From the NCBI GenBank assembly GCA_022653735.1, contig JALCSU010000006.1, positions 1 through 64,000 on the forward strand: DNA of 64,000 nucleotides. The letters run 5' to 3'. The first letter of the stretch is position 1. Each line of letters opens with the position of its first letter. This document shows, piece by piece, positions 13,941 through 49,258 of this stretch. The DNA is from Bacteroidales bacterium (GTDB lineage: Bacteria > Bacteroidota > Bacteroidia > Bacteroidales > UBA932). The notes beneath the pieces are model-generated. The model saw nothing but the letters and a program-made list of their open reading frames with translations. It had not been told where the DNA came from and did not search any database. The translations under genes were made by a program, and so were the position numbers.

Positions 13941-14306
13941 ATGTTACAAAACACTTTTACTCTTGAGCAGATGCCCCAGATCGTGGCATCTCTCGAACAG
14001 AAGGTTGACCGGCTTGTCAACCTGGTCCTTGAACTCAAGGACGCCAAGGGGAATACCCCCGACGAGTGGATGGACGTTGAAGGCCTGATGGCCTACCATC
14101 CCGACAAACCCGCTCGCAAGACCATCTACGACTGGGTCACGCTCAGGCGCGTACCTTACCACAAAGATGGCAAGCGGCTCCGTTTCCTCCGTTCCGAGAT
14201 TGACGCCTGGCTTGCCGGCGGCTATCACAAGACCGAGGACGAGATGCAGGAGGCGGCCGTGGATTACGTCAACTCTAAACGTGGAGGGCTGCGCTATGAT
14301 CAGTAG
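13941..14306 (+). CDS. Helix-turn-helix (excisionase/HTH_17-like) protein
   Basis: WMDVEGLMAYHPDKPARKTIYDWVTLRRVPYHKDGKRLRFLRSEIDAWL. Confidence 0.75.
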   Translation: MLQNTFTLEQMPQIVASLEQKVDRLVNLVLELKDAKGNTPDEWMDVEGLMAYHPDKPARKTIYDWVTLRRVPYHKDGKRLRFLRSEIDAWLAGGYHKTEDEMQEAAVDYVNSKRGGLRYDQ

Positions 14307-15213
14307 AGAAGCCATCCTCGCCAAGACGCACTACGGCACGGGAATCTATTCCCACATTCTGCGTCAGTTCTACCCCGGCGAGACCGTGATGAAAATCTCC
14401 GGTCGCGACTGCGGCATCTGCAGGAATCCATTTGCCGATGGCAGCGAGACCCTCCACGTCTGGACGGAAAAGATTCACCCGGAAGAGAAACTCTCCGACG
14501 AAATCGCCCGTCACAAAGACCAGTTCGACGCTATCCCCGAAGGCGACTGCTTCGACTTCGCCAAGCTGTACTGGAGGAAAGACGGACAGGATCTGCTCAT
14601 CGCCATCAACGAAGACCTGTTCCTCCATCTTGAGGAGGGCTACAGCCCCTACGACCGCAACGCGGTCCCGGTGAAGCCGCTCCCCTCCTTCTCCTTCTTC
14701 AAGGCTCCGGTCACGAACAAGACTCCTCACAAGTCCATCACGCTGCTGGATGTCTGTAACTACATCACCGGTCACTACGCTCAGGCCGAGACCGAGAAAC
14801 TCCGCTCCATCGAAGACAAGGACGCCAGACGCAAGTACAAGGCTGCCCACTTCGCATACTGCACGTTCTCCGGTGTGTTCTCCGAGCGGTCCAACGACAA
14901 CCTGGTGGAGCATAGCGGCTACCTCTGCCTCGACTTCGACCACGTTCAGGACATAGACGCTCTAAAGCGGACGCTCCTGGACGACCCGTACTTCGAGACC
15001 GAGTTGATGTTCCGCTCTCCCAGCGGTGACGGGCTCAAGTGGATTGTCAAAATCAACGTAGCGTTGATGCCGCACTCCGACTACTTTCGTTCCGTCTCCA
15101 ACTACCTGGTTCAAACCTACGGCATCGAGCCGGACAAATCGGGCAAGGACGTGTCCAGAGCGTGCTTTTTGCCCTTCGACCCGGAAGCGTATCTCAACCC
15201 TGAAATCTGTTAG
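14296..15213 (+). CDS. BT4734/VirE N-terminal-like primase-associated protein
   Basis: FSGVFSERSNDNLVEHSGYLCLDFDHV...ETELMFRSPSGDGLKWIVKI. Confidence 0.75.
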   Translation: MISREAILAKTHYGTGIYSHILRQFYPGETVMKISGRDCGICRNPFADGSETLHVWTEKIHPEEKLSDEIARHKDQFDAIPEGDCFDFAKLYWRKDGQDLLIAINEDLFLHLEEGYSPYDRNAVPVKPLPSFSFFKAPVTNKTPHKSITLLDVCNYITGHYAQAETEKLRSIEDKDARRKYKAAHFAYCTFSGVFSERSNDNLVEHSGYLCLDFDHVQDIDALKRTLLDDPYFETELMFRSPSGDGLKWIVKINVALMPHSDYFRSVSNYLVQTYGIEPDKSGKDVSRACFLPFDPEAYLNPEIC

Positions 15214-15215
15214 CG

Positions 15216-17030
15216 ATGGAAAAAATCCCATTTGATCCCCACGCATGGGCGAATAAAGTAACCCCTGCGACCGAACGTAAAACTTCATCCTCTGTCGTCA
15301 ATACCGGCGACAGGGCCGATGATGTTGAAATCGTTCTTCAGCGAATTGAAGCGGGTCATATTGACATCACCACCGGCTACGACAACTGGCTGGACATCGG
15401 CTTTGCCTTTGCCGATGAATTCGGTGAAAACGGCCGTGACTACTTCTATCGCGTCAGCAGATTCCACCCGGAGTACAACGAGCGCATTACCGACGAGCAG
15501 TACGACAAGTGTCTCAGGGCGCACGGAACCGGTGTGACCCTCAACACGTTCTTCCACAAGGCCAAGGAAGCGGGCGTTTCCCTTCACACCCGCGAGCGCG
15601 TATGCGCAACTTCCGCAGAATGCGCGAAATCCGCAGACACATCTCCTGCGCATATTGCGGAAACTGCGGATTCTGCGCAAAAGCAGCCCGACGATGTCGA
15701 AGAGCCTCCGCTCCCCGTCTTCTCCCCTGCCGTCAGAGACCTTCTCCCCGCACCGCTCGATACGATCGCGGCCCAGTCCACTTCGGACGAAGACTGCGAT
15801 ATGCTCATCCTCGGTGCTCTTTGCGTTCTTTCATCCTGCCTTCCTCACATCTCCGGAGTTTACCACGGACGGAGAGTGTACCCCAACTTCTTCCTGTTCG
15901 TCACCGCCGGTGCGTCCGCAGGCAAAGGGCGTCTTACGCTCTGCCGGCACCTTGCGGAGCCCATCGACGATGCGCTGCACCAGAAGTGTGACGATGAAGA
16001 GAAGGAGTACAAGAAGAAGATGCAGGAATTCAAGTCCGCAAAGAACAAGTCCGGGCTTGAGATACCGGAAGAGCCGCCGATGTTGATGCACTACATCCCT
16101 GCCAACAGCAGCGCCACGGTGGTCTATCAGATCCTGAACGACAACGGTGGCAAAGGGATGATGTTCGAGAGCGAAGGCGACACCCTTGCCAACATTTTCG
16201 CTTCCGACTACGGCAAGTATTCCGACGGCTTCCGCAAGGCGTTTCACCACGAAAACATCTCGTTCGCCAGACGCAAGGACCGCGAGCGCGTGTTCATCAA
16301 GGAGCCCAAGTTGTCCGCCCTGCTTACCGGCACTCCGAACCAGATTCTCAATCTCATAACGGATGCCGAGAACGGCCTGTTCAGCCGCTTCGCGTTTTAC
16401 TGCCTGCAGACGGAACTCGTCTGGCTCAGTCCGTTCGCCTACAAGGAGGAGGTTACCCAGGACGATTTCTTTTTGGAACTCGGGGCCGGAGTTAAAGACC
16501 TGTACGACATCCTCAAAGCCGGGAAGGACCTCCGTTTCTCTCTGACCGAGGAGCAGGAACAGGACTTTGACAGCCGCTTTTCCGACTCGCAGATGGCGCT
16601 TTACAACCAGTACGGTGACGCTATCGTCGCCTCCATCAGGCGTCTAGGTCTCATTACTTACCGTATAGCTATGATTCTGTCCGCCTTGAGGCTGACAGAG
16701 GATGGTGACTTCGAGAGCGACATCGTATGCCTGGAACAAGATTATCAGACGGCTGCCGCCATCTGCGAGGTGCTTGTGGCTCACATGGCGCGGGTATACA
16801 AAATGCTGCCGGAGACTCCGGTCGCCATCAAGTCCAAGCGCAGCGACAAGCCGAAGGTTTACCAGCGCTTCTACGATGCCCTTCCGGGCACCTTCGACCG
16901 GAAGACATACTCTGATGTGGCCGTGGCCGTGGGCCTCAACCCGCGCTCGATTGACCGCACCATCGGACAGTGGTGCGACGAAGGGCGTCTGGAGAGAACC
17001 GCGCACGGCCAATATGCCAAGGTTAAGTAG
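15216..17030 (+). CDS. PriCT-2 plus DUF3987 primase/helicase-like protein
   Basis: N-terminal YDNWLDIGFAFADEFGENGRDYFYRVSRFHPEYNE (PriCT-2-like) and C-terminal DUF3987-like ATPase region. Confidence 0.75.
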   Translation: MEKIPFDPHAWANKVTPATERKTSSSVVNTGDRADDVEIVLQRIEAGHIDITTGYDNWLDIGFAFADEFGENGRDYFYRVSRFHPEYNERITDEQYDKCLRAHGTGVTLNTFFHKAKEAGVSLHTRERVCATSAECAKSADTSPAHIAETADSAQKQPDDVEEPPLPVFSPAVRDLLPAPLDTIAAQSTSDEDCDMLILGALCVLSSCLPHISGVYHGRRVYPNFFLFVTAGASAGKGRLTLCRHLAEPIDDALHQKCDDEEKEYKKKMQEFKSAKNKSGLEIPEEPPMLMHYIPANSSATVVYQILNDNGGKGMMFESEGDTLANIFASDYGKYSDGFRKAFHHENISFARRKDRERVFIKEPKLSALLTGTPNQILNLITDAENGLFSRFAFYCLQTELVWLSPFAYKEEVTQDDFFLELGAGVKDLYDILKAGKDLRFSLTEEQEQDFDSRFSDSQMALYNQYGDAIVASIRRLGLITYRIAMILSALRLTEDGDFESDIVCLEQDYQTAAAICEVLVAHMARVYKMLPETPVAIKSKRSDKPKVYQRFYDALPGTFDRKTYSDVAVAVGLNPRSIDRTIGQWCDEGRLERTAHGQYAKVK

Positions 17031-17058: not shown

Positions 17059-17165
17059 TTCATTTGATTGAAATTCCGTAAGTTACAGATTAAGCGAGCA
17101 ATAAACAGATAAAAACTACCGGCAAACCGATATTTTTTGTAACTTTGTAGAAATATGAATTGCTT

Positions 17166-18077
17166 ATGAAGTTGTTCGAAGACATGACTCAAGCTCGGCC
17201 ATTCATCAAATGGGTTGGAGGGAAGACACAGTTGCTGGATGAGGTTCGCAAATCGCTCCCTCGCGATTTCGCATCCCGTCAGCAAGTTACTTATGTGGAG
17301 CCGTTTGTTGGTGGTGGCGCCGTTATGTTCTGGATTCTTCAGGCATATCCCAACATTGAGAGAGCTGTCATCAACGACATCAACCAGGAACTTATCTGCA
17401 CCTATCGTGTAATCAAGGAGAACGTGGAGGAACTGATAGCAGAACTCGCTCATATCCAAGAAGAGTATATTCCCCTGGGCGCAGAAGACCGCAAGGCTTT
17501 TTTCATTGAGAAGAGAGCCCGTTTCAACACGAAGCAGACCACTCCGGTAGAAACGGCCGCACTCTTCATCTTCCTCAATAGGACGTGCTTTAATGGCCTG
17601 TACAGGGTCAATTCCAAAGGCGAATTCAATGTTCCTCACGGCAAGTATGCTAATCCCCGTATTTGCGATGCTGATAATCTCCGTGCATGTTCCAGTGTCC
17701 TTCAGAGGGTAGAAATCCTCTGCGGTGATTTCGCGGAAACTGGACGCTTCGCCGGCCCTAATACCCTGTTCTATTTTGACCCGCCGTATAAGCCCATCAC
17801 CGAAACTTCATCCTTCACGTCATATGCAAAGGAAGGCTTCGACGATAGCGAGCAACTCCGACTCCGCGACTTCTGTGACCAGATTAGCAAGGAAAAAGCC
17901 CTCTTTGTAGCCAGTAACTCTGATCCGAAGGACGTGAATCCTACAGAGAATTTCTTCGACACCATATACCAACACTTTGTCATCAAAAGAGTATCCGCCG
18001 CCAGAATGATTAATTCCGATGCTTCTGGCCGCGGCGCCATCTCTGAACTGATGATTTCTAACGTAGTTAACGCGTAA
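17166..18077 (+). CDS. dpnM: D12-class DNA adenine methyltransferase (M.DpnII/Dam-like, GATC)
   Basis: PFIKWVGGKTQLLDEV, TLFYFDPPYKPI. Confidence 0.93.
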   Translation: MKLFEDMTQARPFIKWVGGKTQLLDEVRKSLPRDFASRQQVTYVEPFVGGGAVMFWILQAYPNIERAVINDINQELICTYRVIKENVEELIAELAHIQEEYIPLGAEDRKAFFIEKRARFNTKQTTPVETAALFIFLNRTCFNGLYRVNSKGEFNVPHGKYANPRICDADNLRACSSVLQRVEILCGDFAETGRFAGPNTLFYFDPPYKPITETSSFTSYAKEGFDDSEQLRLRDFCDQISKEKALFVASNSDPKDVNPTENFFDTIYQHFVIKRVSAARMINSDASGRGAISELMISNVVNA

Positions 18078-18079
18078 GT

Positions 18080-18937
18080 ATGAGAGATTTTATGACTTGG
18101 TTGGCGGGCTTCCGCTCCGCCATAGCTGGCTATAAGTATTACACCGACTTTGAGAAGATTTACAAGAATGTAGACGCTATCAAGGTTGAGCTCAACATCA
18201 TGAATTCCCTAATAGGATGTCAGGATATTGAAAAGGGATTCGTGGCGCTGTACCGGCGTTATCCGGAAATCCTCAAGTGTATTCCTATCCTGCTTGCCAA
18301 GCGTGAATCTGACATCCTTACCGTGGACTTTGACGGCGAGCACGTCTGGAATTTCAAGAAGGCCAACTACCACATTGAGGAATACACTGTTTTTATGCGT
18401 GAGACCGGCCTGTTCGACCTCATGCAGCAGAAGCACATCCACAATCTGGTGGACTACGTTACCGGCGTAGAGACCGGCTTGGACTCCAATGCCCGTAAGA
18501 ATCGCGGTGGTCACGTGATGGAAGACCTGGTGGAAGGTTATCTTATCAAGGCCGGTCTGGAGAAGGATAAGACTTACTTCAAGGAGATGTACATCCACGA
18601 AATTGAGCAGAAATGGGGCATTGACCTGTCCTGCATCTCCAACGAGGGCGGCACAGAGAAACGCTTCGATTTCGTCATCAAGCGCCCCAATATGATTTAT
18701 GGCATCGAGACCAATTTCTACGCCAGCGGTGGCTCCAAACTTAATGAGACTGCCCGCAGTTACAAGACCATCGCCCTGGAGACCAAGAATCATCCCAAAT
18801 TCAAGTTCGTCTGGATTACTGATGGCCAGGGCTGGGGCTCTGCTCGTAATAACCTAAAGGAGACCTTCGACGTTTTGGAGAATCTCTACAATATCATGGA
18901 CCTCGATGAAGGTGTGATCGCATCGAAACTGATATAA
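18080..18937 (+). CDS. dpnB: DpnII-family type II restriction endonuclease
   Basis: NRGGHVMEDLVEGYL...EKRFDFVIKRPNMIYGIETNFYASGGSKLNETARSYK; sits between the two methyltransferases. Confidence 0.93.
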   Translation: MRDFMTWLAGFRSAIAGYKYYTDFEKIYKNVDAIKVELNIMNSLIGCQDIEKGFVALYRRYPEILKCIPILLAKRESDILTVDFDGEHVWNFKKANYHIEEYTVFMRETGLFDLMQQKHIHNLVDYVTGVETGLDSNARKNRGGHVMEDLVEGYLIKAGLEKDKTYFKEMYIHEIEQKWGIDLSCISNEGGTEKRFDFVIKRPNMIYGIETNFYASGGSKLNETARSYKTIALETKNHPKFKFVWITDGQGWGSARNNLKETFDVLENLYNIMDLDEGVIASKLI

Positions 18938-18942
18938 CCCAA

Positions 18943-19824
18943 ATGCCCACAGCCTACTACAAATCACAGGATAAAAACTTCACGCTCCTGCAGGGAGATT
19001 GTATCGAGCTTTTGAACTCCTTCGATTTCAAGTTCGATATGATTTTCGCAGATCCGCCATATCATCTGTCAAACGGTGGCATCAGCATACAGAGCGGCGT
19101 TCCCGTGTCTGTAAACAAAGGCAAGTGGGATAAGTCCCAAGGATTTGAGGAGGACTACAAGTTTGATAAAACATGGCTGGCAGCCTGCCGTGAGCATCTG
19201 AAATCAGATGGCACTATCTGGGTCAGCGGAACATATCACAACATTTTCTCCGTTGCTCGTTGCCTTACGGAGCTGGACTTCAAGATTCTCAATTGCATCA
19301 CGTGGGTAAAAACCAATCCTCCACCCAATCTGTCCTGCCGGTATTTCACATACTCAGCGGAGTACATCCTGTGGGCTCGAAAGGAGCAGAAAGTGGCTCA
19401 TTACTACAACTATGAGCTGATGAAGGAAATCAACGGTGGTACTCAGATGCGTGATGTCTGGACGTTGCCGGCTATTGCACCGTGGGAGAAATCATGCGGC
19501 AAGCACCCCACCCAGAAACCGTTGTGCGTCCTGTCGAGAATCATTCAGGCTTCTACGAAACCTGGTGCCTGGATACTTGATCCGTTCACAGGAAGCAGTA
19601 CTACCGGTATTGCGGCCAACCTTCTGGGACGCCGCTTCCTCGGCATTGACCAGGAAGAAAAATTCCTCGAGATGAGCAAAGCCCGTCGCGAGGAACTGAA
19701 CAGCATCAATCGTAGAGGAGAGATTCTGGAGAAATTAGAGAAGCAGGCCAAACTCTTCCAGGATAGCGACATCCGCGTCCTGTGTGAGCCGGAGGCGTAT
19801 TACGGTCCCGAACTTCCGTTCTAA
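18943..19824 (+). CDS. dpnA: DpnA-like site-specific DNA-methyltransferase
   Basis: MIFADPPYHLSNGG, KHPTQKPLCVLSRII, DPFTGSSTTGIAANLLGRRFLGID. Confidence 0.92.
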   Translation: MPTAYYKSQDKNFTLLQGDCIELLNSFDFKFDMIFADPPYHLSNGGISIQSGVPVSVNKGKWDKSQGFEEDYKFDKTWLAACREHLKSDGTIWVSGTYHNIFSVARCLTELDFKILNCITWVKTNPPPNLSCRYFTYSAEYILWARKEQKVAHYYNYELMKEINGGTQMRDVWTLPAIAPWEKSCGKHPTQKPLCVLSRIIQASTKPGAWILDPFTGSSTTGIAANLLGRRFLGIDQEEKFLEMSKARREELNSINRRGEILEKLEKQAKLFQDSDIRVLCEPEAYYGPELPF

Positions 19825-20384
19825 TATTCTCTGTGTCGAATCACCAAATTAAGGACATTCTTGAAGTCCCGTTGGCCCAAAATGCACTCTTTTGTCCACT
19901 GAAGCGCCAGTTTGAACTGGTGGGCGTCAGGTGTCTGTTTCTCACACAAACAGAATAGTTCAAGGATAATGGCAATTCCACCGATGGACATTGTCCCTGG
20001 AGTACTAACATTTGCAAACTTGGTCTCGATCTCTTTTAGGGTGCGAGGCTGATAAAGCTTACGCTCTTCCAGTGAGTCGAAAGGCTTGCAAGATTCATAG
20101 AACTCAAGATAATAGTCCAGTAAACGAACAACCGCATCTTTGTGGTGCTGTGCTTTTAGCAGTAAGTCTACTACCCATTCGTCGTGGGGAAGAAGGAATG
20201 GCTTCGCATCAGGTTTTGGCTGAAGAATCTTCACGCGGAAATCCAGATCGGGTCGTGCTCCTTTTTTCCCTTGAAAGATACCGATTGCTGTTCCATCAGA
20301 AGCCACAAAGGTGTGAATGGCAGGACCTTTAGGATCACGGTACTGCCACATCTCATTGTCAATGAAATACTTTGGATTATACAT
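19821..20384 (-). CDS. Hypothetical protein in XRE-controlled module
   Basis: ORF downstream of 20395..20925 on the same strand; start chosen at MYNPKYFID. Confidence 0.6.
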   Translation of the reverse strand: MYNPKYFIDNEMWQYRDPKGPAIHTFVASDGTAIGIFQGKKGARPDLDFRVKILQPKPDAKPFLLPHDEWVVDLLLKAQHHKDAVVRLLDYYLEFYESCKPFDSLEERKLYQPRTLKEIETKFANVSTPGTMSIGGIAIILELFCLCEKQTPDAHQFKLALQWTKECILGQRDFKNVLNLVIRHREY

Positions 20385-20394
20385 AGGCAAAATG

Positions 20395-20925
20395 CTAAAT
20401 GCTTCTAATACCATTGTAAAGCATATTGCGACCACTCCAATTCCAGTATGTTATATCCTGTTCAATAAAGAGCCACTTAATACACTTGCAAATCATGTCA
20501 ACAGGATAGCCACTCTGGAAGGTAAACGCATTATACTCCAAAGGATCAATCTCGTTGCAGTTAAAAATACGGTCTATGATAGCACGAAGACTTGAATATT
20601 GCGCAGGGTCTTCTGCCTTCTTCGCTGCAAGGTCATCTAAGATATTATCGTGAGAAGGCCTATTGCTATGGGATACACGGCCATTTTTGCTTACATGCTT
20701 AAATCTTTGATTTGAAACACGTACCTCAAAGTCGAAACCTTTATTAAGATTCGTGGGCCTCTTCAAATAAATCCGGTTGCCAGCATTATCTGTTTCTACG
20801 TTATATTCGAAATTGCTTGGTGCGCCAGCAGCACCGTTTGGCTCATTTAGAAACAGCTCTGTTAGAGTACGCCTATAATCCGCTCTGGAATTTTCGTTAA
20901 TAGTAACTGGGAGAATTGTTGCCAT
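20395..20925 (-). CDS. Hypothetical protein in XRE-controlled module
   Basis: ORF immediately downstream of the XRE gene. Confidence 0.65.
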   Translation of the reverse strand: MATILPVTINENSRADYRRTLTELFLNEPNGAAGAPSNFEYNVETDNAGNRIYLKRPTNLNKGFDFEVRVSNQRFKHVSKNGRVSHSNRPSHDNILDDLAAKKAEDPAQYSSLRAIIDRIFNCNEIDPLEYNAFTFQSGYPVDMICKCIKWLFIEQDITYWNWSGRNMLYNGIRSI

Positions 20926-20926
20926 A

Positions 20927-21136
20927 TCAGAATAAATCTTTGATGTCCAATTTCAATGCTTTAGCGATGCGCTCGATATTACAGAGGGTAATGTTCTTTT
21001 CTGCACGTTCTATCATACCGATATATGTTCGATGTACACCAGCCAAGTCAGCAAGCTGTTCTTGTGACAGATTACGTTCTTTTCTAAGCTCTTGAACTCT
21101 CTGTCCGAAAGCCTTGAGAATAGGTTCTTTTTCCAT
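20927..21136 (-). CDS. XRE-family regulator resembling RM controller (C) proteins
   Basis: FGQRVQELRKERNLSQEQLADLAGVHRTYIGMIERAEKNITLCNIERIAKAL; close homolog at 49031. Confidence 0.85.
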   Translation of the reverse strand: MEKEPILKAFGQRVQELRKERNLSQEQLADLAGVHRTYIGMIERAEKNITLCNIERIAKALKLDIKDLF

Positions 21137-21172
21137 TATGTAATTGCTTGATTTACTAATTACAAAGGTAGA

Positions 21173-21207
21173 TATGCTAACTAAAGTTATCAACATACTA
21201 TGGTTAG
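21173..21207 (-). promoter_or_regulatory. Operator-like site upstream of XRE gene, matched at 48959-48993
   Basis: CTAACCATAGTATGTTGATAACTTTAGTTAGCATA (minus strand), 34/35 identical to 48959-48993 in the same position relative to the start codon. Confidence 0.75.
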
Positions 21208-21414: not shown

Positions 21415-23505
21415 ATGATTATCAACATTTTATCGGTCGATTTTATCACAGACGTAATCGACCTTGAGGTGAACAGAGAAAGAAAAGAACACGGACACAT
21501 CCGGAGTCTATTCAAAGACCAGTGTCCCGAACTGTGGGCTGCTGAGCCCACCCTCTCCGCCACCCGCCGTCTCTATTTCTCCATCACCAGCAACGCTCGT
21601 GAGTGTTTTGGTGATTCTTACTTTGCCCGCATCCGCCTTGGTGCTGATCGGGATCTGACTAAAAGCGTTTTAAAACAACGTCTTTACGACTATTTCCGAC
21701 AACGTGCCATTGTCGGTTATGATTTCGTAGACAACATCGAAGTCTGGATTGAGGACTCAGAACAAAAGCAGGAAGGCTGCACGCAGTACCTCCGTTTCTC
21801 CATTGTACCCAAAGACCAGACCGTCACTTCAGGATGGGAATTGCTCGTGTCATACAATGGGCACTCCATCGTATATGACACACCCCTTTCCGCCCTTGAC
21901 CTCAAAGCAACACGCTATAAGGTTATTGTTGGAGACGAAGTGGTTAAAGTAAGGGACCTCACTCCCGAGCAAAAACGAGAAATCTCCTCCATCTTTCCAG
22001 TCGTCAACAAGGAGCTGTCCAGAGAACTCGGTGTCATTGAGCATTATGAGAAGATTCCTAACCGCTATGCCGACACCCTGCCCAAGATTCGTTCATTCGC
22101 AAAAGAGTATCTATACACAGAAGAATTCAACTCCACAGTACTGAAGATAACCTGCAATGATTTCATCACGGTGCCTGACGACAAGCTAACCGAGGTAACA
22201 CAGGGCTCCAACGTGCTGCTCTTCGGCCGCAGCCAGATTAGTTTCGACCCGTACACCGGCTTATTCGGCAATCGAAATGGAGGCGGATACGGTCCGTACA
22301 GTGCAACAGAAAAAACAAACGTCCGCTTCTTTTTCATCGCTCAAGAGAGTCAGAAGGATGTTTGCCGGTCGCTCTACTGCATTCTGAAAGACGGAATGGT
22401 AAAGAATCCTTCCACCGGTGCGTACTTTCAGAAATACAAATCGCTTGCGGACGACATCCTGCAGCCTTTTAACACTGACAAGAATGGAAGCATCTTTTTT
22501 CAATCAGTTGAGACCGCTGTCGAGGACATACGAGCAGGCCTGGCAAAGAAGCAGTGGGATGACAACGCCTTCTACGTGGCTCTCTACATCAGTCCAGTAG
22601 ATCGTGATGACCCTAACCCGGAGAGGCACGACATATATTTCAAGGTCAAGGAAATGCTGCTGGAGAAAGGGGTCACCTCGCAGGCTATTTACAACGAGAA
22701 CCCTGGCAAGAATGCATTCCAGTTCCATCTTCCCAATATCAAAACCGCAATACTTGCCAAGATAGGTGGCATCCCCTGGCAGTTGCAGACACGCAAGAAA
22801 AGTAACGACGTTATCATAGGTGTCGGGGCATTCAAGTCCGAGAAGATTGGTAAGAGATACATTGGTAGTGCTTTCTGCTTCAATAATGAAGGTGTTTTCC
22901 AGAACTTCGACTGCTATCGAGATGATGACCTTGACAGCCTTGTGGGCGATATTCGTAAGGCATTGGGCCATTTCGTTATTGAGAGCGGTAATCCCGACCG
23001 TGTAATCATTCATTATTATAAGACGATGAAAGAAAGGGATTCTGCGAAGATTACGGATATGCTGTATAAACTCGGTTTCTCTATCCCGGTATATATCGTC
23101 ACCATCAATAAAACTGAGGCATCTGATTATGTCGGATTCGATACTGAAGACCCTGGCCTTATGCCGAAGAGCGGCACTATAGTCAGGCTCTCGTACAACG
23201 AATTCTTGTTGTATAACAATGCCCGCTATGATAAGCCTGGCAGATACGATTTCCTCTTCCCAGTCAAATTGAAACTGAAGAAGGTCTATAATAACGCGGC
23301 CCCCGAGGACAAAGAATTGCGCATGGACGAAGCCCGTGCCCTTCTTAACCAGGTCTACAAGTTCAGCCGGATGTATTGGAAGTCTGTTAAGCAACAGAAT
23401 CTGCCCATCACCATCAAATACCCGGAGATGGTCGCAGAGATAGTTCCTCACTTCCGCAAAGAAGAACTCCCCGCTTTCGGCAAAACAAACCTCTGGTTCT
23501 TGTAA
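21415..23505 (+). CDS. Prokaryotic Argonaute (MID-PIWI), 696 aa, catalytic residues apparently substituted
   Basis: HLPNIKTAILAKIGGIPWQL, DVIIGVGAFKSEK, PDRVIIHYYKTMKERD, QVYKFSRMYWKSVKQQNLPITIKYPEMVAEIVPHF...LWFL. Confidence 0.88.
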   Translation: MIINILSVDFITDVIDLEVNRERKEHGHIRSLFKDQCPELWAAEPTLSATRRLYFSITSNARECFGDSYFARIRLGADRDLTKSVLKQRLYDYFRQRAIVGYDFVDNIEVWIEDSEQKQEGCTQYLRFSIVPKDQTVTSGWELLVSYNGHSIVYDTPLSALDLKATRYKVIVGDEVVKVRDLTPEQKREISSIFPVVNKELSRELGVIEHYEKIPNRYADTLPKIRSFAKEYLYTEEFNSTVLKITCNDFITVPDDKLTEVTQGSNVLLFGRSQISFDPYTGLFGNRNGGGYGPYSATEKTNVRFFFIAQESQKDVCRSLYCILKDGMVKNPSTGAYFQKYKSLADDILQPFNTDKNGSIFFQSVETAVEDIRAGLAKKQWDDNAFYVALYISPVDRDDPNPERHDIYFKVKEMLLEKGVTSQAIYNENPGKNAFQFHLPNIKTAILAKIGGIPWQLQTRKKSNDVIIGVGAFKSEKIGKRYIGSAFCFNNEGVFQNFDCYRDDDLDSLVGDIRKALGHFVIESGNPDRVIIHYYKTMKERDSAKITDMLYKLGFSIPVYIVTINKTEASDYVGFDTEDPGLMPKSGTIVRLSYNEFLLYNNARYDKPGRYDFLFPVKLKLKKVYNNAAPEDKELRMDEARALLNQVYKFSRMYWKSVKQQNLPITIKYPEMVAEIVPHFRKEELPAFGKTNLWFL

Positions 23506-23736: not shown

Positions 23737-23871
23737 ATAAGGAAAAGCGGTCACGGTCAGCAGTCAGTTGCTCCGCTCGCTGCGCTTGCTCCACAACTGC
23801 CAGCTCACCGTGCTGGTTTATCCCCCACCGCCCCCAGGGGCCATAATCGCCCGGGAGCCGTAGTGCCGGAG
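23737..23871 (+). repeat. Hairpin repeat copy A (~135 bp)
   Basis: High similarity to 32064-32202; nested stems CACGGT/ACCGTG and CAGTTG/CAACTG. Confidence 0.75.
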
Positions 23872-23873
23872 CG

Positions 23874-24266
23874 CGCAACCTCGTCCTGCCCAAGTACCGC
23901 GCCGTCATCTTCATCAACGGCTGCTTCTGGCACGGCCACCGCGGTTGCACCAAGTACGTCGAACCCAAGACGAACGCCGGATTCTGGAAAGAAAAGATAG
24001 CCCGCAACATCGCCCGCGACGAACTCAACGCCCAGCGCCTCGACACCCTCGCCTGGACCGTCATCACCGTCTGGGAATGCGAACTCGGCAAGAATACAGA
24101 TGCCACCATCGACCGCATAGAGGCCGATTTACGGGCCGCAAAGGAGAAATACGACAAATGGACTGCTCTCCGCCGCGAGAGCCGCGAATACGCCCGAGAA
24201 CAGGCCAGAAAGCATCGTGAAATCTTGCCCAGGTCGAAGCCGAACTCCACCTGCCCAAAAGTCTGA
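23874..24266 (+). pseudogene. vsr: Very-short-patch-repair (Vsr) endonuclease, N-terminally truncated
   Basis: NLVLPKYRAVIFINGCFWHGHRGCTKYVEPKTNAGFWKEKIARNIARDELNAQRLDTLAWTVITVWECEL; no start codon, fused to the repeat. Confidence 0.8.
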
Positions 24267-24413
24267 GGCGTTATGCTAAAAGAATAGTAGATGAAGAATA
24301 GTTCTTGGTTTTGCTATAAATAACTCTTTCATAACCTTTAACATCTTTTAACAGAAAAGATTTGCCCTCCCGAAATTGGCTTCATACCTTTGCGGAAACA
24401 AACGCATAAGTGT

Positions 24414-25226
24414 ATGAATATTATTGATTTAGATTTAATTTTAGACAGAAACTCCGATCTGGGAGACCGGGGTTTTCAGAGCGACGGAAGGACCACCAGT
24501 CTGATGTCAATGCCAAACGAGTTGAAAGGGTTTGAACCGAAGAATGAAGGTGAGTACATGTACAAGGAAGCGTATAGTTTCCTGGCCAACGACAATCCCG
24601 TGATGGGCAGGCACTTTTTGGAAAAAGCCTATGAATTGGGTAACTTTGCTGCTGGCAACGATTTGGCCTATGGTCTTTGTCACGGATGGTTCGGCGAGCG
24701 GGATTATGACACCGCCACTAAAATCTACCGGAAGCTGGCCCGCAAAGGAGACCCTGATGCCATGAACAACTACGCCTTCAGTTATCTGTTGGGAACGGGC
24801 GTAAAGAAGAACCTCCGGCTTGCCGAGTTCTGGATGTGGAAGGCCATCTGGAAAGGGAACATCCACGCGGCCGCCAATTATGCCCAACTGGTTCTGGAGA
24901 ACACGTTCAACAAAATCAGCAAGAGCCTGGGAATGTGGCTTTGCTTCTGGGCAGCAGATTGTGGCGAACCTACAGCGATGAACGACCTTGGCCTGAGCTA
25001 TGAAACCGGCATTTTGGTCAAAAAAGACCTCAAAAAGGCCTATGAGTGGTTCATGAAATCGGTAGAGCATGGCGGTGGAGCCTGCGCCGAATTCAACGTC
25101 TCCCGGTGCTACAGGTTCGGCCTGGGAGTAGAAGAGGACGAAAGGAAGGCCGATGCTTGGCAGAACCTGGCTATAGAACACGGATTTGACATTGAAGCAT
25201 ACAATAACCTATATGATCTCGGATAA
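24414..25226 (+). CDS. Sel1-repeat protein
   Basis: Repeats such as ATKIYRKLARKGDPDAMNNYAFSYLLGTGVKKN and AYEWFMKSVEHGGG. Confidence 0.8.
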   Translation: MNIIDLDLILDRNSDLGDRGFQSDGRTTSLMSMPNELKGFEPKNEGEYMYKEAYSFLANDNPVMGRHFLEKAYELGNFAAGNDLAYGLCHGWFGERDYDTATKIYRKLARKGDPDAMNNYAFSYLLGTGVKKNLRLAEFWMWKAIWKGNIHAAANYAQLVLENTFNKISKSLGMWLCFWAADCGEPTAMNDLGLSYETGILVKKDLKKAYEWFMKSVEHGGGACAEFNVSRCYRFGLGVEEDERKADAWQNLAIEHGFDIEAYNNLYDLG

Positions 25227-26067
25227 ACAAACCAACGCTGTGTACCTGGCCGAAGGCCTGCAGCACTATATGCCCGCATTCAAGAGAATTCTTGACGAAC
25301 TCGACTCTGCGCGTGTCCATCTGCATACTCTTCCTCTCACCAAGTCCAAGAAGCATATCTGGGCGCGGGATTATATGCCCATCCAGCTCGATAAGGGCCG
25401 CTTCCTGCAGTATGCATATCACCCTGACTACCTCTATGGATTCGAGGACTTTATCCCTGATTATAAGGGCATCTGCAAAGAAATGAACCTCGAATGCGTC
25501 ACAACTGACATCATTATGGACGGCGGCAACGTGGTAAAGTGTGGCGACAAGGTCATTATGACCGACAAAATCATCAAGGAGAACCCGATGCGCTTCTATA
25601 AGGATTTGCTCAGAGAGCTGGAAAATCACTTCCAAGCGCAGATCGTTTTGATTTCCAGAGACCGATATGATCGCTATGGCCATGCAGACGGAATGGTCCG
25701 CTGGATCGACGGAAACCGCGTCCTCCTGAACAACTATGCCGATTTTGACCCGAAACTGGGGAAAGAACTGCGGAAGGAGCTGTCCGAGCATTTCACCGTG
25801 GAAGAACTGCGCTACGGCACCAACAAGCACCTCAAGATCAACTGGGCGTACATCAACTTCTTGCAGACGGAGAAATGTATCTTTGTGCCTGGGCTTGGTA
25901 TCGAAGAAGACCAGATGGCCGTCGAGCAGATCCAGAAGTTCTATCCCGATTACAATGTTCGTCTCGTACGCGATTGCTGGGACATCATCAAGGACGGCGG
26001 CGCCCTCAATTGCGTCAGCTGGAATATCCTTGCCGATGAACCCGAATGGTCACCGGAGGAAGCTTAA
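25213..26067 (+). CDS. Agmatine deiminase/peptidylarginine deiminase-like protein
   Basis: IWARDYMPIQL, DGGNVVKCGDKVIMTDK, YGHADGMVRWIDG. Confidence 0.75.
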   Translation: MISDKQTNAVYLAEGLQHYMPAFKRILDELDSARVHLHTLPLTKSKKHIWARDYMPIQLDKGRFLQYAYHPDYLYGFEDFIPDYKGICKEMNLECVTTDIIMDGGNVVKCGDKVIMTDKIIKENPMRFYKDLLRELENHFQAQIVLISRDRYDRYGHADGMVRWIDGNRVLLNNYADFDPKLGKELRKELSEHFTVEELRYGTNKHLKINWAYINFLQTEKCIFVPGLGIEEDQMAVEQIQKFYPDYNVRLVRDCWDIIKDGGALNCVSWNILADEPEWSPEEA

Positions 26068-26086
26068 CGTTTAGCCCTGCAACCTT

Positions 26087-27181
26087 ATGACACGTTTAGA
26101 AGAAGTATTGACACAATTCAACGCCCGTGAGGCGAATGAGAAGACCATCATTAAGGAGTTCCGGAAGATAGCAGAAGTCGTTTTCTGGGGTGGCTACTTC
26201 CTCGTGAACAAAAAGACGAGAATCTATCCCGTCGATATTGAGTTCTATCTTTATGGAGAGAAGGCTCGGGAAGAAGCTTGGATGCAGGATAAGAAAATGA
26301 TTCATAGGAAGACCGGCAAATACGATGTTCCATATTTCCCGAACAAAGGCTCATTGTATCCGCATACCTTTGGCATAGATGTCACTTTCGAGAATCCAGA
26401 TAAGGAGTATCGTGCTTCATTTCTTATCAGATCATATCGAAGGGACAACGGCAAAGTCGAAACGCATCCGTCATATCTCTGGGAAGATATGTTCGGAGAG
26501 CAGAGTTTCAGCGGTGAAGGCCTTAGGGTGATATGGAAGGACGAAGAGTCTACTGAGCCGAAGGAGATCATACAAAGCACCAGGCTCAACCTGAAAGACG
26601 AGAAGAAGGAGCAAGACCTGAAACCTTGGCGATTCTACAAGAAAAGCGAGCAAAAGAACTTGGAGTTTGCAAGGACCTTCGGATTCCCTCCGCTGATGTG
26701 TGATGAGCCGAAGATATTAATTCTCGGCACACTCCCGGGAGGCGAATCGTTGGCTCATAAGCAGTATTACTATTCCAATTCCAACCGCATCTGGGAGGTA
26801 TTAAGCCGTCTCAAAGGAGAACAGATGCCGATTGGTTATGAGCAGAAGCAAGCATTTCTGTCCAAACATCACATCGCTTTGTGGGATTACTACCAATCCG
26901 CCATTCGCCCTGACAGCAGCAACGACAAAGACATTCGTGATGGTAAGCCCAACGACATACTTGGCTTCATGGCCAAGCATCCGTCCATCAATGTCGTCGC
27001 CATCAACGGCTTCGGGAAATATGACGACTTCGGTGTGCAGATCGAGAGAGACTTGAAAAAGAATCCTGCACTGGCCAATGTGAAGGTTTTGCGCTTACCG
27101 GAGACCAGTGGGAGCAACAAGAACTATGGCTGGGGCGACCTGGACAAGCTATCCGCGGAATGGGAACAAATCTTTGACTGA
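26087..27181 (+). CDS. Unknown N-terminal domain fused to a uracil/hypoxanthine-DNA glycosylase-like domain
   Basis: C-terminal PKILILGTLPGGESLAHKQYYYSNSNRIWEVL...HHIALWDYYQSAIRPDSSNDKDI...VVAINGFGKYD. Confidence 0.7.
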   Translation: MTRLEEVLTQFNAREANEKTIIKEFRKIAEVVFWGGYFLVNKKTRIYPVDIEFYLYGEKAREEAWMQDKKMIHRKTGKYDVPYFPNKGSLYPHTFGIDVTFENPDKEYRASFLIRSYRRDNGKVETHPSYLWEDMFGEQSFSGEGLRVIWKDEESTEPKEIIQSTRLNLKDEKKEQDLKPWRFYKKSEQKNLEFARTFGFPPLMCDEPKILILGTLPGGESLAHKQYYYSNSNRIWEVLSRLKGEQMPIGYEQKQAFLSKHHIALWDYYQSAIRPDSSNDKDIRDGKPNDILGFMAKHPSINVVAINGFGKYDDFGVQIERDLKKNPALANVKVLRLPETSGSNKNYGWGDLDKLSAEWEQIFD

Positions 27182-27186
27182 CCCCT

Positions 27187-27672
27187 ATGTACGAGAATGA
27201 ATCAGCAGCAGTTCGTCTGGGAGTAGAGTTCCTGACGACCTTGACCGAGAAAGACTATCTCACCGACCTATCCTTCGACCCCGTCGATTTGGAAAGTAAG
27301 TTGAACGAGATAGAGGCCGATGTCATTTTTCTCATATCCAATCTTCCGGTCGAGGCCATTGACGATGATGAGGAAAGAGAAGAAGAATATCCAGGCGATT
27401 TCGAGGACAGCGAGGAACTGGAAGATGAAGTCGTTGAGTGTGAGAAACTGATTGCGCAGGCAAAGGAACTCTTGGCCGCCGTTCGGGAGCATTACTTGCC
27501 GTCCGAAGCAGCAATGGCATCAATTGCATCGAATCCTTCACTCCAGCCGGAGCCGATCAAACCCAAACCGGCTGTTCAGGCAACCGGCAGGAAGAAGAAA
27601 GACGTCGATTGGTCCTTCATCTGGATCATTATCATCCTGGGCATCCTCATTCTTTCCGCCATCTTATCATAG
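27187..27672 (+). CDS. Hypothetical protein with C-terminal transmembrane segment
   Basis: WSFIWIIIILGILILSAILS tail. Confidence 0.6.
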   Translation: MYENESAAVRLGVEFLTTLTEKDYLTDLSFDPVDLESKLNEIEADVIFLISNLPVEAIDDDEEREEEYPGDFEDSEELEDEVVECEKLIAQAKELLAAVREHYLPSEAAMASIASNPSLQPEPIKPKPAVQATGRKKKDVDWSFIWIIIILGILILSAILS

Positions 27673-27704
27673 AAAACGTTCGGTTAGTAGTATTGTCGAC
27701 GTTC

Positions 27705-28289
27705 CTACAGCAATTCCGTCAGAATCCCAAGTTCCAGGGCCTCTGAGGCTGTAATGAACCAGTCTTTCTTCTTCTGCAGGACCTCGTTCAACTGCTCTTC
27801 AGTTACCTTCGTCTTGGATTTAATGATACTGAAAAGAATCTCGTTGATACGGGAAGCTTCAGCCACGGTATCCTCCATCTCCCGGAGTGTTCCGAACGAG
27901 AGGCCTGATACTTGGTGAATCATAAAGGTTGTATTTCGGTACGCCTTGCGCACCTTAGCGCCCAAGGCGACGATGACGCCCATTGACATGATCTTCCCTG
28001 TACAAATCACTTCAACAGGTGTGTTTGATGATTTGATGACATCGTGTAGCGCTAAACCATCATAGCATGCACCGCCATAGGTGGAGAGATAGAATTCAAT
28101 TGGCGTAAGTTTGGCCGGCGACGGATCTTGTCCATTATCAATGGCCCATTGCCGACACTGTTTCAGGTATTCCTGGTCAGAGATGTTGATTTTGACGATT
28201 TCCTTGATTGCGCTTTCCACTGTTGCGCTTTTGAATTCCCCAAAGAAGGTGAGCACTTTGTCCTTTGGCTCAAGTTGCTTTATTTCCAT
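27705..28289 (-). CDS. ClpP-like serine protease
   Basis: LSTYGGACYDGLALHDVIKSSNTPVEVICTGKIMSMGVIVALGAK, TTFMIHQVSG, KDWFITASEALELGI. Confidence 0.85.
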   Translation of the reverse strand: MEIKQLEPKDKVLTFFGEFKSATVESAIKEIVKINISDQEYLKQCRQWAIDNGQDPSPAKLTPIEFYLSTYGGACYDGLALHDVIKSSNTPVEVICTGKIMSMGVIVALGAKVRKAYRNTTFMIHQVSGLSFGTLREMEDTVAEASRINEILFSIIKSKTKVTEEQLNEVLQKKKDWFITASEALELGILTELL

Positions 28290-28408
28290 ACTCTTATTCT
28301 TTTTCTGGCGACAAAGGTAATCGGGGCTTCGGCAAGATTCAGGCAAATGCACTTTTTCTATATTCTGCCATTATTTTGCCGAAGATATGGCTATCTTTGT
28401 GGTCAGAT

Positions 28409-29326
28409 ATGGCAAAGAATTATTTCAAATCTTACATTTGGCTACTGGAAACGCTCCAGAGCCGCGGGCCGCAGACGTTGGCTCAACTTAGGCAACTATG
28501 GAGGCGGAGTACGGTAAACGAATTCGGCAGTGACCTTGCCGCGCGCACGTTCGCGAATCATATTGAAGCAATATCCGACATCTTCGGTATCGAGATTGTT
28601 TGCGACCGTAGAGACAACACTTATAGCATCGTCAACGAAGAAGATATGGACGGCACAGGTATCCGCGCCTGGATGCTGGATGCCCTTAGCTTGAACTCCC
28701 TTCTCAACGAGAGCGCTGGCATGAAAGACCGAATCTTCTTCGAGAATGTGCCTTCCAGCCACCAGTTTCTGACCACCGTCATCCAGGCCATCCGTGACAA
28801 TCGGAAGCTGAAGGTTCGCTACCAGGGCTACCGGATGGACGAGGAACGGACCTTCGAGCTGGAGCCGTACTTTATCAGAGAATTCAAGCGCCGTTGGTAT
28901 CTGTATGGCCATAAGGATTACGACAAGGACTTCAAACCACACATGTACGCGCTTGATCGGATGCTCGAGGTGGAGATACTTCCCGATACGTTCAAGGTAC
29001 CGGAAGGTCTGGATGCCAAGGCCTGGTTCCAGTCTCTATACGGAGTGCGCAAGTATGACGATATGAAGAGCCAGCAGGTCCTCTTGAAGGTCCACGGCAA
29101 ACAGGTTCGCTACTTCCGCTCCCTTCCACTGCATAGCAGCCAGGAAGAGATCGAAACACACCGTGACCATAGCGTCTTTGCCTACAACCTTGCTCCTGAC
29201 TATGACTTTAAGCAGGATATTCTTTCGTTTGGTGATACCATTGAAGTCTTGGAACCGAAAACGCTTCGTACAGCAATCAAAGAAACGATCAATCAATTAA
29301 ACACCTATTATGATGATGAGCAATAG
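28409..29326 (+). CDS. WYL-domain transcriptional regulator
   Basis: HTH followed by VRYQGYRMDEERTFELEPYFIREFKRRWYLYGH...MYALDRM. Confidence 0.85.
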   Translation: MAKNYFKSYIWLLETLQSRGPQTLAQLRQLWRRSTVNEFGSDLAARTFANHIEAISDIFGIEIVCDRRDNTYSIVNEEDMDGTGIRAWMLDALSLNSLLNESAGMKDRIFFENVPSSHQFLTTVIQAIRDNRKLKVRYQGYRMDEERTFELEPYFIREFKRRWYLYGHKDYDKDFKPHMYALDRMLEVEILPDTFKVPEGLDAKAWFQSLYGVRKYDDMKSQQVLLKVHGKQVRYFRSLPLHSSQEEIETHRDHSVFAYNLAPDYDFKQDILSFGDTIEVLEPKTLRTAIKETINQLNTYYDDEQ

Positions 29327-30281
29327 CAAGAGGTTGGACGAATCTGCCAAATCAAAAGGCCTGTATAAGTTTTTTCAAGGCAACGCGTTCCTTACTTCCG
29401 GTAACGTACAGCTAAAATCGAATTATTCCAAGGGCAAAGAGTCTCCTTGGTCACTCGCTTTTGCTGGACACTGTATAAAGGATATCTTCAAGATTGACGA
29501 TCCGACGTTTTGCTCCAAGTTCGTGCAAGCTATCAGCGGCGATGGACAAGAGGCTAATAAGATTACGACACTTCACTCCTCATCGCTTGCATCATTACTG
29601 GTGTTCTATTCGGTCAGTAAAGACAACCCCATCTATTTGACGGTTAATGGTAAAGAGGAGAAATTTATAGAGAGCCGATTTGAGGTTAAAAATGAGGTAA
29701 GTCCTGGTAGTGGTAATTACTCCAATGTTGATGTGGTCCTATTAGGCGAGAACTGCATTATGTACCTTGAATCTAAGTTCTCTGAGTATCTAGGGAGCAA
29801 GCCTGTTGAAGTGAAGAAGGTTGATTACTATGACAAGATTTATGAAAGACTAGCAGGCACACTCAAAGAGGCTGGTGTCCATTTAGTGGAAAAGGAGTCA
29901 AAGCGCTTTCTTGATAGCGTAGAAGATAAGTCTTTCTATAACGAGGGAGTCAAACAGATGATCTCCCACTATCTCGGCGTTACCACCGAGTTGATGAAAG
30001 GAGAGGATTGCTTTAGCGGGAAGAAGGTCGTTCTTGGAGAAATCCTCTTCAAATTTGGAGATAGAGTTCCTAAGGCTTCTGATAAATACCAATCTTATAA
30101 AGATGCATATAGCATTTTACAAAAAGGGCTTGCTCATTGCGCAGAGGAAGATGGCAAGGGACTCATTATCAACAATCTAATGACGTATCAGAGCGTTCTC
30201 GGTTCAGAAGCGAACCACAAATTCTTAATGAATCTACCTGAAAGCATACGCCAGTTCTATCGTTTCGATGAAATCATATAA
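29310..30281 (+). CDS. Predicted PD-(D/E)XK nuclease-like protein
   Basis: NVDVVLLGENCIMYLESKFSEYL has a D...ExK arrangement; overlaps the WYL gene. Confidence 0.5.
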   Translation: MMMSNSKRLDESAKSKGLYKFFQGNAFLTSGNVQLKSNYSKGKESPWSLAFAGHCIKDIFKIDDPTFCSKFVQAISGDGQEANKITTLHSSSLASLLVFYSVSKDNPIYLTVNGKEEKFIESRFEVKNEVSPGSGNYSNVDVVLLGENCIMYLESKFSEYLGSKPVEVKKVDYYDKIYERLAGTLKEAGVHLVEKESKRFLDSVEDKSFYNEGVKQMISHYLGVTTELMKGEDCFSGKKVVLGEILFKFGDRVPKASDKYQSYKDAYSILQKGLAHCAEEDGKGLIINNLMTYQSVLGSEANHKFLMNLPESIRQFYRFDEII

Positions 30282-30283
30282 CG

Positions 30284-30850
30284 ATGCTCATCAAGACCAG
30301 TAATAAGGCCATCTTCGCATTCTCCGACACCCACGGCAATCATCGCCACCTGCAGGTGCCGGAGAATGCAGATATTGTCATTTGTGCCGGTGATGCCGTG
30401 GAGGATGATCTAAAAGGCGTCGAGTATGATGATTTCATCTCTTGGTTCGGGGCGCTTCCGGCCAAATGGAAACTCTTTGTCCCGGGCAACCATGAACTAT
30501 CTTTTGACCTGAACCAAGCCAATGACATCATACGCAAGTTTGAGGCTGCCGGCATCACTGTTTTGCAGGATGCCGTAGAGGATTGCGACGGTGTAATTAT
30601 CGGCACTGTTTCCGGGAACGCAAGGATTGCCGATGAAGATATCCCCATCGATCTTGACATCCTTGTTACTCATTATCCACCATACGGCGTCCTCGATGAA
30701 GATCTGGGCTCCCCGGAGATACTCAACTTCGTTCTGAAGGCAAAACCCAAGTGGCATCTCTTCGGCCATATTCACGCAACTGAGGGACAACAGCTCCAGT
30801 TGGGCAGCACCACCTGCCAAAATATTTCCGTTTTTAACGCTATTTCTTAG
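30284..30850 (+). CDS. Calcineurin-like metallophosphoesterase
   Basis: FSDTHGNHRHL, ICAGDAVED, FVPGNHELSF, HLFGHIH. Confidence 0.88.
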   Translation: MLIKTSNKAIFAFSDTHGNHRHLQVPENADIVICAGDAVEDDLKGVEYDDFISWFGALPAKWKLFVPGNHELSFDLNQANDIIRKFEAAGITVLQDAVEDCDGVIIGTVSGNARIADEDIPIDLDILVTHYPPYGVLDEDLGSPEILNFVLKAKPKWHLFGHIHATEGQQLQLGSTTCQNISVFNAIS

Positions 30851-30904
30851 CTTCTGCCGAATTTCTGCCGAAGGTTCGGTTATTTTTGCCGAAAAAAGTA
30901 AGAT

Positions 30905-31366
30905 ATGGCAGAAATAATCAATCAAATCCCCGGTTACGAAAAAGGTCGTGTACAGCGCATCAACGCCACTGACGAAGTGAGCGAATCCTTCATCGTTGCC
31001 CAGATGGCCGATGACCTCCGCAAGAAGTGGAACACCTCCGTCCTCTGCGTCTCTCTGGACGGCCACAAAGAGACCATCGAATCCTTGATTTCTCAGGAGA
31101 AGGCAGTCGGCAGGGTATATGTCCTGGATCAGAAGAACCCCGAGTTTGAAGTGGTCTACCGCAAGGCCACCGGCATCATCAACCGCCGCTTCGTCCGCGC
31201 CCTCATCATCAGCGGAGCAGAGCGTCTGACCGCCAAGTTCTTCAAAGACCGCCCGGAGAAAGGTCAAGAATGGATAACCAGTCGCCTTGAAGGGCTGTCT
31301 GGTGGCATGGGACTCCCTGTCATCCTCGTTGAAGTCCACGAGGAATCCGCTGAAATTCAATCTTAA
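30905..31366 (+). CDS. Hypothetical protein
   Basis: ORF with TATTTTTG-like box upstream. Confidence 0.6.
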   Translation: MAEIINQIPGYEKGRVQRINATDEVSESFIVAQMADDLRKKWNTSVLCVSLDGHKETIESLISQEKAVGRVYVLDQKNPEFEVVYRKATGIINRRFVRALIISGAERLTAKFFKDRPEKGQEWITSRLEGLSGGMGLPVILVEVHEESAEIQS

Positions 31367-31380
31367 TAATACTTCATCCA

Positions 31381-31881
31381 ATGAAACGAACAATTCTTAT
31401 CGTGATGCTGGTTCTATCCGGCATCCTGGGCCACGCCCAAAGCACAAATCCGCTGAACTATAGCGGTCGTATGTACGTCGAGGCCATTGAAATCTACGCC
31501 ACGCCTCGATACATTTCCTATGAGGACCACGCCATCGTATCCCAGCAGATGCGCATTCCGTCAGTCGAAATCACCAAGATTGACATGGACTTTGAGAAAG
31601 GGACCGTGACCGTCAAGGATAACGAAATGAAAATCAGGGTCAACGGCTGCAAGAGATATGAGGCCGATCATGGTTGGAAAGTAGTCGTCTATATGGAATT
31701 GGTCAATGAGGGAGATAAGGCCGAATTGGTCTGGCCGGAGTTCGGGAAGCCATATTTCCAGCAAATCACAAAGGTCGATGATGGCGTCAAGATTGCCAGG
31801 ATGATTCTATCCCGAAAGCCATACGTGGCCACTGAAGAAGAAGCATTAATGGACCTGCTGCAGGGATTGGGCACGATGTAA
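31381..31881 (+). CDS. Hypothetical secreted protein
   Basis: Signal peptide MKRTILIVMLVLSGILGHAQS. Confidence 0.65.
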   Translation: MKRTILIVMLVLSGILGHAQSTNPLNYSGRMYVEAIEIYATPRYISYEDHAIVSQQMRIPSVEITKIDMDFEKGTVTVKDNEMKIRVNGCKRYEADHGWKVVVYMELVNEGDKAELVWPEFGKPYFQQITKVDDGVKIARMILSRKPYVATEEEALMDLLQGLGTM

Positions 31882-32063: not shown

Positions 32064-32202
32064 ATTAAGAAAAGAAGGTCACGGCCAGCAGTCGGTTGTT
32101 CCGCTCGCTGCGCTTGCTCCACAACCGCCAGCTCGCCGTGCTGGTCAGTCCCCCTCCAGCTCCCCGAGGGGAGAGCATAAACGCCCGGGAGCCGCAGTGC
32201 CA
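32064..32202 (+). repeat. Hairpin repeat copy B (~139 bp)
   Basis: Homologous to 23737-23871; stems CACGGC/GCCGTG and CGGTTGT/ACAACCG. Confidence 0.75.
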
Positions 32203-48788: not shown

Positions 48789-48958
48789 ACTTAATATGAT
48801 ACCATTTACACTGATAAATAAACTCCGTATTTCTTGCCATCAAGAATATACAAATTTAACGTTTTTTCTTCATTATCTTTTTGTACCCGTTTATAAACAA
48901 AAATATGTGATAATCGTACTATATACCAGTCTGTGAGGTAATCAGCGCGAATGCGGTG

Positions 48959-48993
48959 CTAACTATAGTATGTTGATAACTTTAGTTAGCATA
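48959..48993 (+). promoter_or_regulatory. Operator-like site upstream of XRE gene, matched at 21173-21207
   Basis: CTAACTATAGTATGTTGATAACTTTAGTTAGCATA, one mismatch to the E1 copy. Confidence 0.75.
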
Positions 48994-49030
48994 ATTAACT
49001 TTACAATTTGAAGAAATCAACACTCTTTCA

Positions 49031-49258
49031 ATGGAAAAAGAGCCTATCCTTCTGATGTTCGGCAAGAACGTCCAGAAGATTCGTAAGATTCGGCATCTTT
49101 CACAAGAGCAACTCGCAGAGCTTGCTGGAGTTCATCGTACCTATATTGGAATGATTGAAAGAGCAGAGAAGAACATTACTCTTTGCAATATTGAAAGAAT
49201 TGCAAAAGGACTTAATGTGCCCATTATTGACCTACTATCCGACAAGATCAATGACTGA
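49031..49258 (+). CDS. XRE-family controller-like protein
   Basis: FGKNVQKIRKIRHLSQEQLAELAGVHRTYIGMIERAEKNITLCNIERIAKGL; overlaps the restriction gene. Confidence 0.88.
   Translation: MEKEPILLMFGKNVQKIRKIRHLSQEQLAELAGVHRTYIGMIERAEKNITLCNIERIAKGLNVPIIDLLSDKIND

Follow-up and report, generated by a model that had tools for sequence, protein, structure and literature searches.

A putatively non-cutting, PAZ-less long-B Argonaute on a Bacteroidota integrative element, transferred as a single gene with no fixed partner nuclease

Results

The window, i.e., the whole 64,000-nucleotide stretch of contig JALCSU010000006.1 analyzed here, contains a 696-residue open reading frame (ORF) with an ATG start at 21415 to 23505 on the plus strand. 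Pfam PIWI (PF02171) matches residues 403 to 677 (E = 3.6e-11), and the PADLOC prokaryotic Argonaute (pAgo) model PDLC02385 matches the ORF from end to end (7e-211). This full-length match argues that the pAgo assignment is not due to chance, and the two matches corroborate the MID-PIWI half reported in an earlier note on this DNA. The protein family is already catalogued, since PDLC02385 covers it, although the model itself carries no information on mechanism or context.

A new finding is that an integrative element of Bacteroidota carries the pAgo gene. The element begins after mnmE (8247 to 9668) with a helix-turn-helix (HTH) protein, a tyrosine integrase (11008 to 12117, plus strand), and accessory genes. 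A protein with a BT4734-like (formerly VirE N-terminal) domain (14167 to 15213, plus strand) follows, together with the PriCT_2-DUF3987 replication protein of the element (15216 to 17030, plus strand). We take the old VirE-N domain to be PF08800, now named BT4734-like_N; it is fused to DUF3987 in some relatives, e.g., L043. A direct repeat of the mnmE 3′ end was considered as the right end of the island and rejected, as no exact repeat of at least 14 bp exists. The order continues with a restriction-modification (R-M) locus, two overlapping ORFs, an HTH gene resembling R-M control (C) proteins, and the pAgo.

The R-M system upstream of the pAgo (17160 to 19824, plus strand) is a complete DpnII-type one. 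It comprises a D12-class, DpnM-like adenine methyltransferase (17160 to 18077; Pfam, PADLOC), the DpnII restriction endonuclease (18080 to 18937; Pfam, 2e-105), and an N6/N4 DNA methyltransferase of the DpnII-type system (18943 to 19824; Pfam, PADLOC). On the minus strand lie the two overlapping ORFs (19821 to 20435 and 20395 to 20925) and the C-protein-like HTH gene (20927 to 21196), which diverges from the pAgo. The region 48957 to 49194 shares 75% DNA identity with the C-protein region and is apparently a second copy of such an HTH gene. The first ORF, also present in L020 (98.5% amino acid identity), is probably the partner of the second. In two viral contigs, homologs of the second adjoin a DpnII locus, in stretches without pAgo; therefore, both ORFs were assigned to the R-M locus and rejected as an effector of the pAgo. 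An AF2 model of the second ORF had no confident match in the PDB. The possibility that the two are one frameshifted gene was dismissed because L020 keeps both frames.

The nearest downstream gene, a Sel1 gene at 24390, opens an exchangeable module (24390 to 31881) that encodes Sel1, PAD (deiminase), UDG-like, and ClpP proteins, a WYL regulator, and a REase-like protein, among others. An approximately 137-bp direct repeat (85%; left copy 23738 to 23867, right copy 32066 to 32201) flanks the module. In L019, whose pAgo is 99.7% identical, colinearity with the window at 99.8% extends up to 24259 and the module is absent; L020 lacks it too. This rejects Sel1 and the deiminase as pAgo partners. Thus, the suggestion that an unrecognized neighbor on either side could be a conserved partner finds no support. 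Just 3′ of the pAgo, 23873 to 24260 appears to be the remnant of a mismatch endonuclease of the Vsr type; the Pfam Vsr profile (1.5e-6) matched with its C-terminal part only. Separately, a 19-kb scaffold filed under a Desulfovibrio metagenome-assembled genome (L018, JALHHV010000075.1) is nearly identical to the window, very likely through a binning error. The earlier note had also seen no known effector next to the pAgo. This holds immediately downstream, where no SIR2, TIR, TM, or PD-(D/E)XK gene is found; upstream lies the complete DpnII-type locus.

The catalytic residues of the pAgo are substituted. In the window protein, G469-V470-G471 (22819 to 22827, plus strand) stands in place of G-x-D, so that the first catalytic aspartate is G471 (IIGVG). 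Likewise, H533-Y534-Y535-K536 (23011 to 23022, plus strand) replaces H-R-D-G, and the last D/H is E671. In an alignment of 60 homologs (A1), 57 have G and 3 have N at the first position; the counterpart of HRDG is H-[FY]-Y-K, with H533 invariant and tyrosine at position 535 in 52; and 49 carry E at position 671. With two catalytic aspartates replaced by G471 and Y535, the window pAgo is predicted to be unable to cut. The MID pocket for the guide 5′ end (Y408, K412, Q423, and K449; 22636 to 22761, plus strand) is, on the other side of the ledger, conserved family-wide: Y408, K412, and K449 are kept in 59/60 homologs and Q423 in 58/60, and all four align with the YKLK...SQ...K motif of AfAgo. 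The C-terminal W-F-L is also intact across the family. The same substitutions and the same kept pocket across 60 homologs therefore bear out the earlier reading of these motifs.

An AlphaFold model from the same alignment (pLDDT 90.5, pTM 0.88) found its best fold matches, over the full length, in RsAgo complexes (Foldseek, 2.5e-28). The alignment shows no DEDX catalytic tetrad, as in other long-B pAgos. The family profile scored AfAgo at 152 bits (1.6e-43), EcAgo at 144 bits (5e-41), and RsAgo at 128 bits, against 59 bits for the SPARTA pAgo and 63 bits for the long-A AaAgo; long-A and short pAgos did not exceed 63 bits. EcAgo (PDB 23wq) is taken here, from its name and length, as the BPAN Ago. 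The predicted L1 strands run to residue 178 and the L2 helix starts at 217; the roughly 38 residues that separate them form no beta-barrel and leave no room for a PAZ domain, in line with the earlier note. The N-terminal region of about 230 residues, in which the earlier note saw no obvious TIR, SIR2, or nuclease domain, is not an unexplained addition; the model and the full-length RsAgo match identify it as the N-L1-L2 half usual for a long pAgo. The proposed kinship with short pAgos that work with TIR/SIR2-APAZ partners must be abandoned in view of the profile scores, the RsAgo fold match, and the single-chain long architecture. Furthermore, no APAZ or effector gene of the SPARTA/SPARSA/SPARDA kind lies beside the pAgo. 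Placed by profile scores rather than by a tree with reference long-A and short sequences, the window protein is, as judged from its sequence, a single-chain, PAZ-less, inactive long-B pAgo with N-L1-L2-MID-PIWI architecture.

This form has already been outlined (PMC10954474). The best profile match, the truncated, split long-B AfAgo of Archaeoglobus fulgidus (PDB 1w9h, 6t5t), is likewise PAZ-less, with an inactive PIWI and the same MID residues. However, AfAgo consists of two chains, N-L1-L2 and MID-PIWI, and an effector-like gene lies downstream of it (PMC10954474), whereas the window pAgo is one chain with no dedicated effector. The best fold match, long-B RsAgo of Rhodobacter sphaeroides (PDB 5awh, 6d8a), is similarly an inactive single chain with G at the first catalytic site. 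It differs in retaining a reduced PAZ (PMC10954474) and in an N-terminal half that is about 60 to 75 residues longer by alignment.

The family occurs in roughly 4 to 7% of sampled genomes at the class, phylum, and order levels around the window, and at 31 loci of the species collection, nearly all from Bacteroidota by record titles. No relatives of the pAgo were found in viral and phage searches, and those on plasmids are distant only. ORFs of the relatives came from a simple caller, which makes their starts approximate. Neighborhoods were counted over the 42 main-clade loci that remained after dereplication and had sufficient upstream sequence. No dedicated partner gene is conserved among them, and no downstream family recurs beyond three GmrSD cases. 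Other neighbors come from unrelated defense families, such as reverse transcriptases (UG19, AbiP2), MkoA- and TmtA-like proteins, and Schlafen-AlbA, besides GmrSD. In L032, L040, L044, L052, and L113, the pAgo is followed at the island edge by long genes of efflux type (CusA-like by eye) or by neighbors of such genes. This may account for the RND transporters described next to long-B pAgos (PMC6299218), which would then belong to the chromosomal flank and not be partners.

R-M genes lie within six genes of the pAgo in 30 of the 42 loci (type I in 20, type III in 6, and type II in 4) and were undetected in 12; in L032, L033, and L040, the pAgo is preceded only by an HTH gene. A same-strand upstream gene ends within 60 bp of the pAgo in 29/42 loci, and HsdR or Res is immediately upstream in 10/42, often with gaps of 0 to 29 bp. 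These counts make a functional R-M link plausible, in which guide-bound pAgo would mark foreign DNA and recruit the resident nuclease or translocase (HsdR, Res, or a type II enzyme), any R-M type serving. In elements collected by starting from the primase gene, R-M genes accompany the pAgo in 7/7 cases and occur in 5/10 elements without it (p = 0.04), but the detection models were built from pAgo loci and are biased toward the pAgo side; hence, a specific link is suggested at most. Since half of the pAgo-less elements have R-M genes, adjacency is partly a property of the island. Type I operons tend to end with HsdR, which places an appended gene beside it. Across the 45 labeled main-clade loci, the tree requires at least 17 switches of R-M label versus a shuffled mean of 20 (8/300 shuffles gave as few), indicating that the R-M type is only weakly inherited with the pAgo. 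Close pAgos beside unrelated R-M types make a specific protein contact hard to sustain, and 12 loci offer no detectable R-M to couple with. We regard R-M coupling as plausible but unlikely. A more elaborate form, in which the dead pAgo plugs into the ends of type I, II, or III operons, steers their nucleases to guide-complementary DNA, and moves as a one-gene cassette, seems to us slightly less likely still.

The pAgo has been transferred as a one-gene unit, with no fixed partner nuclease. In similar pairs (87 to 95% DNA identity), homology spans the start to the stop codon, and both flanks differ. The pAgos of L030 and L048 are 94.6% identical over a stretch beginning 1 bp inside the start and ending 1 bp past the stop; one has HsdMS-AAA upstream and GmrSD downstream, and the other has HsdR upstream and a TPR/AraC-type protein downstream, while their left arms (DUF3987 and HTH genes) are 93.9% identical. 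The L118 and L120 pAgos (87%) have type III and type I surroundings, respectively, those of L023 and L024 (87%) also differ in their flanks, and L028/L043 show a similar pattern. In the first three pairs, the homology breaks off on each side no more than about 20 bp from the start or stop codon. The same pattern could result from selection that keeps genes intact and closely packed. Both L029 and L031 carry a 155-bp copy of the 3′ end of the pAgo; it closes the downstream module on the right and adjoins the shared right-end motif of the element. In L035, the pAgo is the last gene, with this motif 52 bp after its stop. Thus, in this group the pAgo appears to have once been the terminal gene of the element, modules having been swapped on either side of it.

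Such 155-bp remnants, the broken copies in L047 and L021, and the catalytic loss could be read as signs of a decaying passenger without function. Against this, dN/dS is 0.03 to 0.18 in nine closely related pAgo pairs (0.03 for window/L020), and the C-terminal WFL and the MID pocket remain intact across the family. The pAgo is therefore under purifying selection, functional though non-cutting, and we consider decay highly improbable.

The primase-first control also bears on what the pAgo does for its carrier. With the truncated contig L137 left out of the count, 7/17 elements carry a pAgo, compared with a rough base rate of about 5% of genomes, and the gene is present in 5/8 testable close elements of one type. 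An upstream HTH family co-occurs with it (5/7 elements with pAgo versus 0/10 without, p = 0.003). This enrichment, the HTH family, and the terminal position in L035 would fit a pAgo that serves the element itself, e.g., by excluding competing elements or plasmids or by stabilizing the island, rather than general phage defense. However, this HTH family is missing from the window, and full-length pAgos in L041, L046, and L076, among others, have no BT4734/DUF3987 gene in the flanks read; we find this reading rather improbable. A link by clustering between the window HTH and the element HTH family F4 was rejected, the sequences being different.

Discussion

Song et al. (2023) sorted long-B pAgos into subclades with linked effectors, one near "VirE-N" proteins (og_54), and a partnerless remainder left for future study (PMC10620215). 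The long-B pAgos assayed there use an effector. BPAN, BPAS, and BPAM belong to the same inactive long-B clade as the window pAgo, but what defines them is a gene for a dedicated nuclease, SIR2, or TM protein directly downstream (PMC10620215), which main-clade relatives of the window pAgo lack. These members match the residual "og_54 VirE-N/no partner" group, and the window pAgo thus probably belongs to the long-B group left without an effector. In the window, VirE-N (BT4734-like) is encoded on the element, and DUF3987 is a predicted helicase of mobile-element replication (PMC5862659). From this we infer that the og_54 "partner" is a replication gene of the carrier element, not a functional partner.

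A dedicated effector acting in trans, as an equivalent of those in BPAN/BPAS/BPAM, was also weighed. In divergent relatives (L058, L078, L082, L130, and L131), a SIR2 gene directly follows the pAgo, so that these look BPAS-like, and the genome (a 76% complete metagenome-assembled genome) encodes one SIR2_2 protein elsewhere, on contig C5, that is 24 to 30% identical to theirs. The REase-like protein of the downstream module is another candidate. This protein (29310 to 30281) matches Pfam REase-ARP, its gene overlaps the end of the WYL-domain regulator gene (28265 to 29326), and it is possibly a regulated nuclease; we found no paper explaining "ARP". The REase-like gene is, however, absent from L019 and L020, no main-clade pAgo has a downstream SIR2, and the SIR2 association separates on the tree with 2 changes (0/300 shuffles gave as few). 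An effector in trans is accordingly doubtful.

Without a cutting site or a fixed partner nuclease, the pAgo would have to bind DNA alone or borrow other nucleases. We favor, at roughly even confidence, a guide-directed, non-cutting DNA binder, a self-contained one-gene module that interferes without a fixed effector. By analogy with RsAgo and AfAgo, which suggest an RNA guide and a DNA target, the intact MID pocket would load a short 5′-phosphorylated guide, probably RNA. The loaded protein would pair with invading plasmid or phage DNA, and its stable binding could block replication or transcription. Alternatively, the target may be exposed to whatever nuclease is at hand, whether of the host or of the island-borne R-M. 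A dedicated abortive-infection effector would not be needed in either case.

The exchange of surroundings around nearly identical pAgos, e.g., L030 versus L048, is a natural experiment on whether an inactive pAgo needs a fixed effector. The present analysis delimits one effector-less long-B family, of the kind that Song et al. (2023) left open, which is under selection for function.
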